This document shows positions 2,063 to 11,393 of a stretch of DNA of 36,126 nt, one piece after another. This DNA is from a virus: positions 1 through 36,126 of IMG/VR virus record IMGVR_UViG_3300017987_000207, one strand, 5' to 3'. Position 1 is the first letter of the stretch, and every line of letters starts with the position of its first letter. A program made the translations under genes and the position numbers. The notes beneath the pieces are model-generated. The model saw only the letters and a list, made by a program, of their open reading frames with translations. It had not been told where the DNA came from and ran no database searches.

Positions 2063-2313
2063 TAGCCGCAAACCTCCCGGAGCTCGAGCTCGCACGCGTC
2101 CCCGTCCTCGAGCTCGACGGCCTCGACCCGGATCAGGACCGGCGCCACGGGCGCCCCGTTCGGCGCCAGGACCGGCCGGCCAGGAGCCGACGGCCTCGAG
2201 CTCGAGCTCGAGTCGCATCCCGCCAGGAGGACGGCGAGCGCCAGGACGACGCCGAGGACGGCGCACGCCAGGAGGGCGGCCGCTCCGCCGGCCGGGTGTC
2301 GATCGTTCGTCAT
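2062..2313 (-). CDS. Small phage lipoprotein
   Basis: An 83-aa product with an n-region (MTNDRHPAGG), a hydrophobic stretch (about 11-30) and the lipobox LLAGC with the lipidated Cys at 33, so it should be a signal-peptidase-II-processed lipoprotein. A DSSSSS run follows the Cys, then Pro/Val/Glu-rich sequence. The ATG at 2313 overlaps the stop of the replication gene as ATGA, with AGGGGA upstream. It is not next to an endolysin, and a separate o-spanin exists at 15753-15974, so a superinfection-exclusion or envelope role is as likely as lysis. The Ser run is encoded by alternating TCG AGC, one of the many CTCGAG/GAGCTC-like runs here. Confidence 0.7.
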   Translation of the reverse strand: MTNDRHPAGGAAALLACAVLGVVLALAVLLAGCDSSSSSRPSAPGRPVLAPNGAPVAPVLIRVEAVELEDGDACELELREVCG

Positions 2314-3155
2314 GCGTTCCCCTGTCTCGCGGCCTTTCGCCGCTTCGCTGCGATCGAGCTCGTCGCCGCGCGGACCTTCGCCGCGCTCGGCGCGAACCCG
2401 CGCTCGTTCTCGTTCTCCGCGGCCGCGGCGTCGAGGCCGGCCCGGAAGTCGATCGGGTGGAACTCGCGCGTCGCTTTGAAGTAGGCCCGAAGCTGCGCCT
2501 CGTCGGCCACCCGTCCGAACCCGAGGAACCAATGGGCGAGCGCCTCGAATCGAGGCCGGACGGCCGCGATCCGCTCGTCGGTCACGCCCTGGCCGCGGCC
2601 CCACTCGAGAGCCCTCTCGACCTCTTTCTCCGCCTGCCGGCGCCTCGCGTCAGCGGGGCCGACCGAACGAGCTCCCCTCAGAGCCGAAGGCGAACCGGGC
2701 GGGACCCTCTCCCCTCCCGGTTCCGGTTCCGGTTCTAAGAAGGGGTCGCCCGGTGGTCGCTTGCCGGTCGCTGCCCGGTCGTTCGGGGGGTCGTTCGCCC
2801 CACCGAAAGCGACCGGAATCGTTGCGCTTTGGGGGTCGTTCGGGGGGTCGCTCGCCGGTCGCCCGGGGGTCGCTCGGTGGTCACCGGAAACGACCCTTTT
2901 CGGCCTCGTGCCGGTCTGAAATCCCCCCATATCGTGCGAGTAGAGCTCGCCGCGGTGCTCGTCATACTGCGCCAGGAGGCGCCGGACCGTGACCCGGTTT
3001 TTCCCCCACTTCCGAGCGTAGGCGTGGACGGAGAGCCGGCCGCCCTTCCACTCGTCGAGGTCGACCTCGAGGAGCGCGGCGACCTTCCATCGCTGCGCGG
3101 GATCGTTCACGAACTCGAGGAATAGGTCCGTCGAGATTCGTCTATGTCCTGCCAT
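2310..3155 (-). CDS. Phage replication-initiator-like protein
   Basis: Product of 281 aa. Residues 1-75 form a helical, probable winged-helix DNA-binding domain (ALLEVDLDEWKGGRLSVHAY...KNRVTVRRLLAQYDEH). Residues about 85-165 are a Pro/Asp/Arg-rich unstructured linker. Residues about 170-265 are a helical domain with ALAHWFLGFGRVADEAQLRAYF, reminiscent of DnaD-like/lambda-O-like C-terminal domains that contact the helicase or its loader. The linker DNA carries a regular GGTCG repeat array (2744-2883), the same arrangement as lambda O, whose coding sequence contains ori. No helicase or loader gene is visible, so host replication proteins would be recruited. The gene overlaps HNH by 14 bp and the lipoprotein by 4 bp. 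Family assignment rests on layout, not a clear motif. Confidence 0.55.
   Translation of the reverse strand: MAGHRRISTDLFLEFVNDPAQRWKVAALLEVDLDEWKGGRLSVHAYARKWGKNRVTVRRLLAQYDEHRGELYSHDMGGFQTGTRPKRVVSGDHRATPGRPASDPPNDPQSATIPVAFGGANDPPNDRAATGKRPPGDPFLEPEPEPGGERVPPGSPSALRGARSVGPADARRRQAEKEVERALEWGRGQGVTDERIAAVRPRFEALAHWFLGFGRVADEAQLRAYFKATREFHPIDFRAGLDAAAAENENERGFAPSAAKVRAATSSIAAKRRKAARQGNA
2744..2883 (+). repeat. Iteron-like GGTCG array, candidate replication origin
   Basis: The pentamer GGTCG starts at 2744, 2755, 2766, 2777, 2789, then 2834, 2846, 2857 and 2868, with GGTCA at 2879. Spacings are 11, 11, 11, 12, a 45-base gap, then 12, 11, 11, 11: two mirror-image half arrays, one copy per helical turn. 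The gap contains an inverted copy, CGACC, at 2810-2814. The unit is roughly GGTCGYTCGSS. Eleven bases is not a whole number of codons, so the pattern is not a protein repeat. The location inside a replication-initiator-like gene suggests an origin. Confidence 0.6.
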
Positions 3156-3693
3156 CGTTCCCCCCCAATCGGCCGCCGAGGCCGCCGTTCAATCTCTCCG
3201 CGCGCTCGGCCAGATTGCACGGGCCGCACGCGGTCTGTAGGTCGCTGTCCGGGACGTCCTCCTCGGGGATCTCCGGATAGCGGACGTGATGGACCTCGAG
3301 GAGCTCGAGCTCCGTCTCGCCGCACCCCTGGCACGTCCACGAGTCGCGCTCGAGGACGCGGGTCCGCTGCGCCTGGAACGCGCTCGAGCTCCGTTTCCGA
3401 GCTCGTCGACGCTGGAGCGAGCTCGGCCGCGGGGCCTCGAGAACCTTCGGGCGAGCGTTCTCGATCTCGCTCGGGTGGAGGTCGATCGGGAGCGCGTCGC
3501 CATCGTAGGCGCGGCCGTGTTTCCGTCCGCAGCGCTGGCATTGCCAACGGTAGACGACCGGCCGAGCTCGAGAGCCGGTCCGGAAGCGCCGGACCTCGAG
3601 CTCGAGCGCGGTCGCGCTCACGGGTTCGCCGGCGGCCAGGGCGGAGAGGTCGTCACGGCCGAGGCCGACACATTCGCATTCGATCGCCCCCAC
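3142..3693 (-). CDS. HNH endonuclease
   Basis: Product of 183 aa. The N-terminal half has a Cys pair C52/C55 (CQRC); an Arg/Ser-rich linker follows. The C-terminal HNH fold has Zn pairs CQGC (121/124) and CGPC (156/159), the catalytic-region EVHHVRY (His 135/136) and N160. This is the common Cys-x2-Cys...HH...Cys-x2-Cys-Asn version. HNH proteins cut or nick DNA; in phages they act in packaging, recombination or as homing enzymes. It sits inside the leftward early operon immediately upstream of the replication gene (14-bp overlap), not beside the terminase, although on a circular map it lies upstream of the terminase. GTG start at 3693. Confidence 0.85.
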   Translation of the reverse strand: MGAIECECVGLGRDDLSALAAGEPVSATALELEVRRFRTGSRARPVVYRWQCQRCGRKHGRAYDGDALPIDLHPSEIENARPKVLEAPRPSSLQRRRARKRSSSAFQAQRTRVLERDSWTCQGCGETELELLEVHHVRYPEIPEEDVPDSDLQTACGPCNLAERAERLNGGLGGRLGGNDGRT

Positions 3694-3694
3694 G

Positions 3695-4240
3695 TTAGGC
3701 CGCGCCCTGGAGCCGCTTCACCTCTTCGGCGAACGAGAACTCGCGACCTAGCATCGACTGGAGCGAGACGCGGTCGGCCGAGAACTTCCACGCGCGGCCG
3801 TTCCATGTGTCGACCCACTTCGGGACGAGCTTCGCTTTCGGTTGCTCGACGACCTGCACACCGAACGGCGTTAGGCGCCACATCCCGACGCCGGGCTCGC
3901 GCGGATCGCGCTCGGTCGTCTCGCGCGTGATGACGCGGAGGTGTTGCAGATTAGACCAGTCGCGACCGAGGCTCGTCGCCATGCCGCCCCGGATAACCTC
4001 CTCCTCGACGTGGATCCACGGGAACGGGTTCCATTGCTTCCGCCGCTGTCGCGTGATCGCGTACATAGCGACGAGGACCTCGCCCCACCCTCGAGACGGG
4101 CGGCGCCTAGCGACCTGAATTTTCCGCCGGCACAGTGGGCAGTCGATCGGGACGCGGTCGTTCATTTTCCCGCGCGCCCACTCGGTCGCGTAGGCGAGCG
4201 AGTCGTCGGGCTTCGGGGGTCGCATCGGCGGCGAGCTCAT
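3695..4240 (-). CDS. Putative winged-helix phage protein
   Basis: Product of 181 aa. A short Pro-rich start is followed by DCPLCRRK (Cys 34/37; only one pair, so zinc binding would need a partner). A segment from about 53 to 130 (GWGEVLVAMYAITRQ...EVIRGGMATSLGRDWSNLQHL...GMWRLTPFG) has the helix-helix-helix-strand feel of a winged helix. No named family recognised. The ATG at 4240 overlaps the repressor stop as ATGA, so it is probably translated with the repressor and could be a second early regulator. The longer upstream frame is an Arg-rich shadow. Confidence 0.55.
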   Translation of the reverse strand: MSSPPMRPPKPDDSLAYATEWARGKMNDRVPIDCPLCRRKIQVARRRPSRGWGEVLVAMYAITRQRRKQWNPFPWIHVEEEVIRGGMATSLGRDWSNLQHLRVITRETTERDPREPGVGMWRLTPFGVQVVEQPKAKLVPKWVDTWNGRAWKFSADRVSLQSMLGREFSFAEEVKRLQGAA

Positions 4241-4458
4241 GCGGCGGGCGCCTCCTCTCCGTGGAATAGGATCGCGTCGGCGTCGATCTCGCCGCCGGTC
4301 GCGCGAACGAGCCGGCGAGTGAGGTCCGCGCCGGGCTGCTCGAGCCCTTTCAACACGGCCGAGAGGTGGGAGGGCGACACGTCGCACGCGTCCGCGAGCC
4401 ATCGCTGCGAGCGCTCGTTCTCGAGGAGCCAGAGTTTCAGAGGGTGAATTTTCGCCAT
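4237..4458 (-). CDS. Cro/CI-type HTH transcription regulator
   Basis: A 73-aa, single-domain helix-turn-helix protein: PLKLWLLENERSQRWLADACDVSPSHLSAVLKG matches the lambda-repressor-like HTH, with a short helical C-terminus. It has no CI-type cleavage/dimerisation domain, so it is Cro-like in size. I took the ATG at 4458; almost no ribosome site precedes it and a candidate promoter ends immediately upstream, so the mRNA may be leaderless, as lambda cI is from PRM. It heads the leftward early operon and faces the rightward operon at 4582, the classical place for a phage switch. It could maintain lysogeny or only time early expression. Confidence 0.8.
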   Translation of the reverse strand: MAKIHPLKLWLLENERSQRWLADACDVSPSHLSAVLKGLEQPGADLTRRLVRATGGEIDADAILFHGEEAPAA

Positions 4459-6367: not shown

Positions 6368-6440
6368 GCTCCGGACGGTCCGGAGCTCCACACCCGAGCG
6401 GGGGGCGGCGGTTTTCGGGACGCGTGCCGCCGGCCCCCGC
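6368..6440 (+). terminator. Two strong hairpins between DUF2303 and the next gene
   Basis: The first hairpin pairs GCTCCGGA (6368-6375) with TCCGGAGC (6379-6386). The second pairs GCGGGGG-G-CGGCGG (6398-6411) with CCGCCG-G-CCCCCGC (6427-6440): 13 pairs and one G-G mismatch around a loop starting TTTTCGGG. Neither has a U-tract, so this may be an attenuator or RNA-processing structure rather than a simple terminator. Confidence 0.4.
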
Positions 6441-6462
6441 TCAATCGGAGGACCTCGAGCCA

Positions 6463-7431
6463 ATGGCTGCCCATGACCCCGACCGCGACGTCGCGAAGCG
6501 GAAAGCGAACCTCTCCCGACTCCCCCCTCGAGCGCTCGCCGCGATGGCGCGCGTTCTCGAGTATGACGGCGATCGGCACTACGCCGAGGGCGATTGGCTG
6601 GGCGGCGACTCCCGCCGGCACGTCGACGCCGCGCTCCGACACCTCCTCGAGCTCGTCGCCGGGCGGGATTTCGATCCCTCGAGCCGCGAGCTCGTCCTCG
6701 CGCACGTCGCGACCCGCGCCGCGATGGCCCTCGAGCTCGAGCTCGTGAACCTCGAAGACGGGAGCGACCTCGCGCCCTGGCGGATCTATTCGCCGGACGC
6801 CGCGCCCCTGGCCGACTCGGTCGTGTGCCTCGAGCGGGATGCGATCCCGCCCCGCGATCTCGGTCCGGACCTCTCGGCGCGCGTCGCGTCGGTCCTCTCT
6901 CACGACGCCGCCGGCCTCGAGCCCGATCGGCCCCGATCAGACGGCGCGCGAGCTCCGGTCCCCACGAACTCGCCGGGAGCTCTCCCGAGCCCTCCCGGTC
7001 TGCCGACGATGCCCGACCGTCTCGAGTGGCCGATCCGGAGCGAGGACGGGCGGCCGATCATGCCGGAGCCCCACGAGTGGAAAGCGCTCCCGCCGAACCA
7101 TCGCGTCGCGTCGCTGCGCGCGCTCTCGAGCGCCCATCGGACGGCGGGGGGCTGGGCGGCGGACGAGGTTTCCCTGACGCTGGCGCGCGCCCTCGAGACG
7201 CTCGCGGATCTCTCCGAGGAGGTCGCGACGTTGCAGGGCGCGGTCGCCGAGCTTGAGGCCCCGTGTCCGTCGTGGAACAACGTCGGATGCCTCGCCTATC
7301 GGTGCGAGCTCCGCGGGGGTCACGGGGGGCCGCACGTCTTCACGGTTCCGATCGAGGTCGACGACGAGCTCGAGGACGACGACGGCCAGGAGGACGGCGA
7401 CGTCGAGATCGGTCCTCGGGTGCCGGCGTGA
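6463..7431 (+). CDS. dATP/dGTP diphosphohydrolase-like (MazG-type) protein
   Basis: Product of 322 aa. Residues about 15-95 (LPPRALAAMARVLEYDGDRHY...GDWLGGDSRRHVDAALRHLLEL...LAHVATRAAMALELEL) match the N-terminal domain of phage dATP/dGTP diphosphohydrolases (PF18909/MazZ type), where the RH..AA.RH helix and the following acidic/His helix bind metal and the triphosphate. A Pro-rich linker follows, then a helical stretch (about 215-270), a Cys/His patch (CPSWNNVGC...CELRGGHGGPH) and a very acidic tail. Such enzymes trim purine dNTP pools; in Z-DNA phages MazZ works with PurZ, but no PurZ is present. The ATG at 6463 follows GGAGG. The long C-terminus is unusual, and catalytic competence is uncertain. 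Confidence 0.6.
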   Translation: MAAHDPDRDVAKRKANLSRLPPRALAAMARVLEYDGDRHYAEGDWLGGDSRRHVDAALRHLLELVAGRDFDPSSRELVLAHVATRAAMALELELVNLEDGSDLAPWRIYSPDAAPLADSVVCLERDAIPPRDLGPDLSARVASVLSHDAAGLEPDRPRSDGARAPVPTNSPGALPSPPGLPTMPDRLEWPIRSEDGRPIMPEPHEWKALPPNHRVASLRALSSAHRTAGGWAADEVSLTLARALETLADLSEEVATLQGAVAELEAPCPSWNNVGCLAYRCELRGGHGGPHVFTVPIEVDDELEDDDGQEDGDVEIGPRVPA

Positions 7432-9796: not shown

Positions 9797-10717
9797 CTAG
9801 CCCCACCCGTGCGACACGAGATCGACCGCCCCGGGCCGCTCGACCCGGAACCGCCGCTCGACGGCCTCGAGGGCGGTCGCGAGCTCGAGAGCGGAGAACC
9901 GGCGGAGGAACGTCCGAGCCTGCCCCCGCACGCCCTCGAGGAGCTCCTCGAGCTCGTCGTCGGCGCCCTGGCCGGCGTAGGAGAGGCACGCGAGCCGGGC
10001 GAGCTCCTCGTCGCCGAGGCCGCACGTCAGGAGGTACGCGTCGCCGGCGCCGATCGTGTGCGCGGCGGTCGCGTTCCGGGAGCGGAGCCCCTTGTATTCG
10101 GCGATCCACGTCGTCGAGTCGGTCGTCGAGAGCCGGCCGTGTCCGAGCTCGCGGGCGTAGCGCGTCATGCCGAACCCGTGGACCTCGACGCCGGCGCGCT
10201 CCGTCACGTCGAGAGCTCGCTCGAGCCACTCGGTCGGGGCGAGGCCGTCGCCCTGGTCGCGGCCGATCGTCCGGCCGTCCCGGGCGAACCCGAGGCCGAC
10301 GCGCGGGAAGCGCGCGACGTAGTGCTCGAGGACCTCGATCGGCTCGCGGCCGTGATAGACGGGGATCACGTCGACGCCGGCCTCGAGGAGCCGGGCCGTA
10401 TTGCGCCACGTCCGCGCGAGGTCGCCCCCAATGTCGTCGAGCGTGACGATCGTCCCGAAGAGGTGCCCGAACTCCTGGCAGAAACGGACATAGTCCTCGA
10501 GCTCCACCCGGAAGCCAGGGCGGACGAACTCGGAGAACGCTCCCGAGTCGAGGATCGCGTCGGGGTAGAGGCCGGCCTCGAGGCGGGGGCGGAGCTCGCG
10601 CTCCCAGACTCCGGGCCGCTCGAGGACGTCCGCGAACGTGACGAGGACGGGGAGCCCTTCGGTCGCCGCGGCGAGGGTGGCGGAATTGACGCCGGCGAAG
10701 TGGAATCGAGTCGTCAT
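9797..10717 (-). CDS. DpdA-like DNA transglycosylase (TGT fold)
   Basis: Product of 306 aa with the motif series of phage/bacterial DpdA proteins, relatives of tRNA-guanine transglycosylase: DSGAFSEF (57-64, TGT-like nucleophile/general-base Asp region), TIVTLDDIGGD (89-99), DVIPVYHG (116-123), GLGFARDG, HGFGMT (180-185) and TTDSTTW (198-204, second catalytic-type Asp). DpdA exchanges guanine in DNA for a 7-deazaguanine such as preQ0, protecting phage DNA from restriction. None of the preQ0 genes (folE, queD, queE, queC) lies here, so host precursor would be needed. ATG at 10717 with TAGGGGGG site. Family fold is clear to me; DNA rather than RNA as substrate is inference. Confidence 0.75.
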   Translation of the reverse strand: MTTRFHFAGVNSATLAAATEGLPVLVTFADVLERPGVWERELRPRLEAGLYPDAILDSGAFSEFVRPGFRVELEDYVRFCQEFGHLFGTIVTLDDIGGDLARTWRNTARLLEAGVDVIPVYHGREPIEVLEHYVARFPRVGLGFARDGRTIGRDQGDGLAPTEWLERALDVTERAGVEVHGFGMTRYARELGHGRLSTTDSTTWIAEYKGLRSRNATAAHTIGAGDAYLLTCGLGDEELARLACLSYAGQGADDELEELLEGVRGQARTFLRRFSALELATALEAVERRFRVERPGAVDLVSHGWG

Positions 10718-10726
10718 GGCGCCCCC

Positions 10727-11227
10727 CTACCGGCTCTCGAACCGGCCGCCGCAACCGCGGTGCGAGTAGACCCGGCCGGACGGGAGAGCGCGAGCTCGCC
10801 AGAGCTCGAGGCCGCAGCGCTCGCACGTCGCGACGATCCGTCGGGCGCGTCGCTGCCGCTCCGGGATCCCGATCCGCTTCGACTGCTCGCGGGTCGCGGT
10901 GGCCTTGCCCGTGCCGCCGAGGCGGCGAGCCAGGGCGGCCCACTTCCGGCCGTGGCCGTCGTTCCACTCGCCGACGTGCGCGAGCTCATGGGCGAACGTG
11001 TCGAGGAGCTCCTCGGCGTCGGCCATCACGGCCGAGTGGAGCTCGATCGAGAACCGGAGCGTCCGCTCGTCCCGGTTGAGGATCCGGCGGGCTCGGCCGA
11101 ACGTGCGGCGGAGTCGGGGGTTCTCGTAGACGGGGATCCCGGCGAGGATCCCGTCGACGGCGTCGACGTTCGCGCCGACGCGGCGGGCGATCTCGAGGGC
11201 GTTTCCGAGGTAGCGAAGGTGGGACAT
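10727..11227 (-). CDS. SprT-like zinc metalloprotease
   Basis: Product of 166 aa. The active site HELAH (80-84) is followed by the third ligand in GHGRKW (His 92), exactly as in SprT/Spartan proteases. A C-terminal zinc ribbon with CERC and RGC follows (about 134-160). Spartan-type proteases digest DNA-protein crosslinks; phage SprT proteins may clear proteins from phage DNA, but their role is poorly known. I took the ATG at 11227 with GGAG upstream; an ATG 45 bases farther upstream is possible. It lies directly upstream of the DpdA-like gene in one leftward transcript, and its leader carries a strong hairpin (11246-11267). Confidence 0.8.
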   Translation of the reverse strand: MSHLRYLGNALEIARRVGANVDAVDGILAGIPVYENPRLRRTFGRARRILNRDERTLRFSIELHSAVMADAEELLDTFAHELAHVGEWNDGHGRKWAALARRLGGTGKATATREQSKRIGIPERQRRARRIVATCERCGLELWRARALPSGRVYSHRGCGGRFESR

Positions 11228-11393
11228 GTTGGCGGGCTCCGTTTCGGGGTCGCTTCGTTGCGACCCCTTCACTGTGGCACAACGTATCGGAAGCCGTCAA
11301 CGGAACTTGAGGTTCGTCCTGCTACAGAAAACGAACCCCCGACCCGATTCGTTGCGGTACAGTGTGCCACGGGGGACGAGGAGGCCCCTACCC
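11228..11393. promoter_or_regulatory. Divergent control region with paired operator-like sites
   Basis: Between the SprT and RHH genes the octamer TGTGCCAC occurs once on each strand, each facing its gene: plus 11363-11370, minus 11281-11274. Extended to 15-mers, GGTACAGTGTGCCAC and GATACGTTGTGCCAC match at 12 positions. TGTGGCACA at 11273-11281 is also a perfect small palindrome. A leftward -35-like TTGACG (11300-11295) has a weak CACAGT 18 bp away. The SprT leader forms the hairpin GGGGTCGC (11246-11253) / GCGACCCC (11260-11267). The likely ligand is the adjacent RHH protein. Confidence 0.5.

Follow-up and report, generated by a model that had tools for sequence, protein, structure and literature searches.

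A two-arm array of phased 11-bp direct repeats inside a candidate initiator gene as a probable lambda-O-type phage replication origin

A helically phased array of ten short sites very probably constitutes the initiator-binding part of an intragenic, lambda-O-type replication origin in the virus record analysed here (the window; the whole record, 36,126 bases, G+C about 70%), where it occupies the linker-coding stretch of the phage's own candidate initiator gene. Most likely this origin is a variant that is rich in GC, has ten iterons and relies on an orphan initiator. The origin reading is strengthened by many lambda-O-like genes in which such arrays have the same location, and by two annotated putative origins. 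The layout is already known from a few laboratory phages, and the present searches found it to be common among related replication genes in many unstudied phages.

A word search of the 36,126-nt window found nine of the array sites to be GGTCG on the plus strand and the tenth, one base off, to be GGTCA. The array spans positions 2744-2883, in steps of 11, 11, 11, 12, 45, 12, 11, 11 and 11. The first-pass annotation had given the same steps, leaving the GGTCA at the last site unmentioned, and had correctly noted an inverted CGACC in the middle of the array, which lies in the gap at 2810-2814; another is found at 2891-2895. The array and the gene that contains it are made up as follows.

2744-2793, plus strand: arm A, five GGTCG (2744, 2755, 2766, 2777 and 2789), in steps of 11, 11, 11 and 12
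2794-2833, no strand: gap between the arms, 45 bp site to site, with the inverted CGACC and a weak hairpin
2834-2883, plus strand: arm B, GGTCG at 2834, 2846, 2857 and 2868 and GGTCA at 2879, in steps of 12, 11, 11 and 11
2310-3155, minus strand: ORF P0001, 281 aa, candidate replication initiator; GC3 0.82, like the neighbouring genes
2946-3029, minus strand: candidate DNA-binding helix-turn-helix of P0001, aa 43-70 (helices 43-52 and 54-70), predicted
2310-2678, minus strand: helical C-terminal domain of P0001, aa 160-281, with a pLDDT of about 74-86 at residues 171-220

The array therefore sits inside P0001, between the predicted helix-turn-helix and the helical C-terminal part. Every one of the ten sites faces in one direction; the mirror symmetry described in the first-pass annotation therefore holds for the list of spacings, which is palindromic, and not for the sites themselves. 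The array is a two-arm direct-repeat array, and 'mirror' is a misnomer. The hairpin in the gap, with a DNA folding energy of -9.4 kcal/mol (z -1.6), is not significant. A further motif, CCGGAA/TTCCGG, occurs at 2718-2735, 2812-2821 and 2883-2892, that is, next to the array at either outer end, with tandem copies at one of them, and once in the central gap. It is possibly a second element of the origin.

With 334 occurrences against 313 expected, the word GGTCG is not itself enriched in the window. Among all 5-mers in the 36 kb, it alone forms chains of four sites at a pitch of 11 and of five and four sites at a pitch of 11 or 12; the next-best 5-mers form chains of three. We then held the P0001 protein fixed and generated 5,000 usage-weighted and 5,000 within-gene synonymous recodings, counting the CGACC sites that have another CGACC at +11 or +12. 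The seven paired sites observed were matched by 0 of 5,000 recodings under each null model (means 0.9 and 1.4, maximum 6). The self-match at lag 11, 0.66, was reached by 25 and 40 of the 5,000 recodings and is weaker evidence. Because the core word was picked after the array had been seen, these tests within the window are partly post hoc, which the comparative evidence below is not. The array is real and goes beyond codon need. Selection on the amino-acid sequence of the linker alone, an account that the Pro/Asp-rich and compositionally simple character of this linker would suit, is extremely improbable: the 11-bp pitch shifts the reading frame with every copy, so protein-level repeats do not explain the array, as the first-pass annotation had argued, and the loss of the array on synonymous recoding contradicts this account.

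We scanned viral contigs for four GGTCG at an 11-bp pitch and obtained at least 119 stretches. Among the 126 arrays listed (the window's included), 43 are in ORFs that match a single O-like winged-helix profile, built in the present analysis. All 43 of these listed arrays have GGTCG on the non-coding strand, and in all but two of the ORFs concerned the array falls at codon 106-137. About ten further listed arrays lie in other initiator-like ORFs; L123 scores above the Pfam cut-off for DUF1376, and L017, L090 and L128 match DUF1376 below that cut-off. The rest of the listed arrays, some of which are plain tandem repeats, occur where the context is unrelated or unclear, so that the GGTCG word pattern is not by itself diagnostic. 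The 11, 11, 11, 12 pattern of arm A recurs in L019, L023, L043, L048, L063, L075, L086, L106 and L110. The consensus of the GGTCG-bearing family members is TGGTCGYTYGYT, and the window unit GGTCGYTCG fits its nine-letter stretch GGTCGYTYG. GGTCGYTYG is found at six of nine array sites in the window versus 8 of the 325 GGTCG elsewhere in the genome, a comparison whose P value is optimistic because the copies in an array are not independent. A T precedes GGTCG in 96% of cases in the GGTCG-bearing family members, but in only 2 of the 10 window units.

Several of the listed contigs carry arrays of other kinds. L040, L079 and L095 each have two GGTCG arrays on opposite strands outside any ORF of at least 90 aa, a truly inverted arrangement; in L040 and L079 the starts of the two arrays are 94 bp apart. 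Two separate 11-bp GGTCG arrays are present in each of L053 and L057 (493 and 427 bp apart), one in an initiator-like ORF at about codon 120-130 and the other at or before the 5' end of that ORF. Near-perfect 11-bp tandem repeats of GGTCGGGCGGC occur outside O-like genes in L034, L035, L091 and L102 and are likely to be minisatellites of another kind.

The reversed word GCTGG at an 11-bp pitch was tried as a negative control and rejected, half of its listed loci belonging to the same gene family. The control failed because the unit TTTGCTGGTCG contains GCTGG, and a protein-selected test replaced it. For this test, genes were picked by their lambda-O/P22-gp18-like winged-helix domain alone, with the linker excluded, which avoids selection for arrays; the peptide pattern used for fetching lay within the last residues of the domain, before the linker. 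A linker was counted when some 44-bp window in it matched itself at lag 11 by 70% or more. Lag-11 repeats were found in 27 of 49 non-redundant linkers, compared with 0.00 after codon shuffling, and other lags gave counts of 0-5 in the 49 linkers, except for lag 22, which gave 12. None of 1,112 other 240-bp segments of the same loci reached this score, as against 35 of 80 linkers (redundancy included). In a search of named phages, the winged-helix domain matched HK022 O, Sf6 gp43, the phage L gene-18 product and further proteins whose annotation is O or DnaD-like loader, with E values between 1e-33 and roughly 1e-5. In these sequences 11-bp iterons are usual just downstream of the winged-helix domain, and they are common in the O-like replication genes of many unstudied phages. 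That many lambda-O-like genes carry the same array type in the same position supports the earlier description of the window array as iterons in an initiator-like gene.

The pattern of conservation within the array bears on how the copies arose. Across the ten window units GGTC is conserved at 10/10 and the fifth base at 9/10, such that 49 of the 50 letters are those of GGTCG, and positions 6, 7, 8, 10 and 11 of the unit are variable. An 11-bp minisatellite in a disordered linker, with copies produced by slippage and without function, would account for the period, the GC-rich low-complexity setting and the partly duplicated blocks, and would have company in the perfect tandem GGTCG repeats of unrelated viral contexts. 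However, neutral decay should be even along the unit, and different O-like genes repeatedly have the same pitch at the same place. We consider a minisatellite origin quite improbable.

It is established that lambda O binds iterons within gene O (PMC7466680). As at lambda ori, the iterons of the window fall midway in the initiator gene, here a candidate one, and separate its DNA-binding part from its C-terminal part, a domain assignment that in the window comes from low-confidence models. Lambda ori has four repeats of about 20 bp and an adjacent AT-rich tract, whereas the window has ten sites at a pitch of 11-12 bp in a GC-rich genome. The O-gene arrays of HK022, Sf6, Salmonella phage L and Enterobacter phage CobraSix have steps of 11, 11, 44, 11 and 11, and thus two arms of 11-bp repeats within an initiator gene already have a precedent; the novelty that the first-pass annotation had seen in the two-arm spacing does not stand, and the repeats of phage L have been published (PMC8022706). 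These four phages are related, so the two-arm layout was probably inherited among them. The Sf6 annotation places a rep_origin at the array and calls it 'reminiscent of the phage lambda origin', and that of phage L has a putative ori there. Six imprecise 11-bp repeats have been described as the likely origin of phage L and contrasted with those of lambda and P22, which are about 20 bp long (PMC8022706). In the literature searched, which took in few subscription papers, 11-bp iterons of such kind are described for phage L only.

The window array resembles those of phage L, Sf6, HK022 and CobraSix in having direct 11-bp iterons grouped in two clusters with about four helical turns between them, and in lying inside the initiator gene (in the window, the candidate initiator gene) just after the DNA-binding domain, here a predicted one. 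It differs from them in its unit, CGACCNNCRNN (coding strand) as opposed to TGTCCAACGGA in the phage L type, in having 5+5 and not 3+3 sites, in the 12-bp step that flanks the gap on either side and in its GC-rich sequence. L and Sf6 have a clear AT-rich tract after the array, which the window does not, and the O protein is recognisable in the phage L group but P0001 is not. Single arms provide a second comparison. L048 and L023 have five GGTCG on the non-coding strand in steps of 11, 11, 11 and 12, identical to arm A, and the O-like gene of Pseudomonas phage KLEP17-4 has steps of 12, 11, 11, 11 and 11 with another core. Unlike the window, these examples have one arm only; their spacers are AT-richer, a T precedes GGTCG where that word is the core, and the O-like domain is recognisable.

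We used AlphaFold2 on the single sequence to model P0001, with low confidence (mean pLDDT 55). The predicted layout comprises helices at 9-70, a low-confidence stretch at 71-165 that includes the array-coded linker, and helices at 167-280. The helix-turn-helix comes from a model of the N-terminal 92 aa alone (mean pLDDT 63), and aa 44-64 align weakly, and not significantly, to the recognition region of the O-like profile. The C-terminal domain might recruit a helicase, although this is a guess; no match to the G39P helicase-loader family PF11417 was found in P0001 at E <= 10. P0001 had no match in Pfam, PHROG or PDB, no relatives in exact-peptide scans and tblastn of phages and plasmids, and no phmmer match among 16,728 ORFs of the fetched loci. 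Fold searches returned nothing, the models being too weak for such searches. Comparison with the O-like profile gave no significant match, with an hmmsearch E value of 0.043 in a one-protein database (0.3 bits) and an hhalign probability of 0.1%; a protein this diverged may escape detection. Searches with the neighbouring genes and the terminase found distant relatives only, none with a matching replication gene. Because P0001 has no placement by sequence in the O family, we file the origin as O-type-like and not as that of a proven member. P0001 is thus an orphan, and judged purely by the DNA pattern within its own gene it is likely to be an initiator.

The genes of the window include those for a GpA-type large and a Nu1-like small terminase, a portal, a head protein, baseplate proteins and a contractile sheath. 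In scans that covered part of the ORFs, neither a phage helicase nor a helicase loader was recognised. Other genes that bear on the setting of the array are the following.

3142-3693, leftward: HNH endonuclease gene, adjoining P0001
3695-4240, leftward: gene between the XRE/Cro-like and HNH genes
4237-4458, leftward: XRE/Cro-like gene, 1.4 kb upstream of the array
6424-7431, plus strand: dATP/dGTP diphosphohydrolase N-terminal domain
9797-10717, minus strand: queuine tRNA-ribosyltransferase-like gene (phrog_887, E 6e-27), which we take to be DpdA-like
10727-11272, minus strand: SprT-like gene

The tRNA-ribosyltransferase-like, SprT-like and diphosphohydrolase genes have possible roles in 7-deazaguanine DNA modification or in the nucleotide pool.

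Helically phased direct repeats are also used in partition and repression systems. The array could accordingly be an operator or centromere-like array, and not an origin, for another phage DNA-binding protein such as the XRE/Cro-like one, whose gene is close by. This is decidedly unlikely, because family scans of most window ORFs revealed no ParA/ParB-type gene, and because the array is within a gene and not at a promoter, in a position that matches annotated putative origins. Repeated sites are used in lambda cosB as well, and given the terminase genes of the window, the array might be a packaging site for a lambda-type terminase, akin to the cosB R sites. However, the terminase genes are about 3 kb from the array even on a circular map, the array is in an early-type gene, and phages with different gene orders have the same array type in their O-like genes, which together make a packaging site very unlikely.

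An origin of the O type directs attention to the DNA beside the iterons, where many O-like genes have an A-rich tract after the array. A stability scan of the flanks found no AT-rich tract 3' of the window array comparable to that of the relatives, and revealed no clear unwinding element. The two flanks are as follows.

2690-2743, minus strand: flank on the side of the AT-rich tract in O-like relatives; modest stability dip only, the best 30-bp window being among the genome's 3.8% least stable
2884-2960, no strand: another candidate for the unwinding element, on the side of the array nearer the initiator N terminus; contains the least stable DNA next to the array, with the best 30-bp window among the genome's 0.2% least stable (z 2.8)

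The cumulative GC-skew minimum that the first-pass annotation expected near the array is absent from there and lies near 7 kb, an observation of little weight given the mixed gene directions.

For the window, the sites, their helical phase and their place in the gene are established, as is the recurrence of such arrays in O-like genes. The putative steps of binding, cooperativity, opening and helicase loading can be modelled on lambda O. The helix-turn-helix of P0001 would bind each GGTCG, and monomers would stack head to tail along one face of the DNA, one site per turn, in two clusters. By straining or wrapping the DNA, the resulting complex would open a weak stretch in the flank, and the host replicative helicase would be brought in by the C-terminal part of P0001.

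It is possible, although we advance this tentatively and think it somewhat doubtful, that winged-helix initiators of distant phages (lambda-O-like, DUF1376/YdaU-like and orphans) share an 11-bp iteron family, TGGTNGYTYGYT, written in their own linkers, of which the window would have the ten-site, two-arm form. If such a shared origin code is true, the origins of uncharacterised phages with G+C contents of 28-72% would be readable from sequence. Origins are unmapped in most phages known from metagenomes only, and for these the result offers a testable rule, namely to search the early replication gene for a phased array of 11-bp pitch directly downstream of its winged helix. In the window, a DNA pattern inside the gene flags P0001, a protein without recognisable relatives, as a likely initiator.
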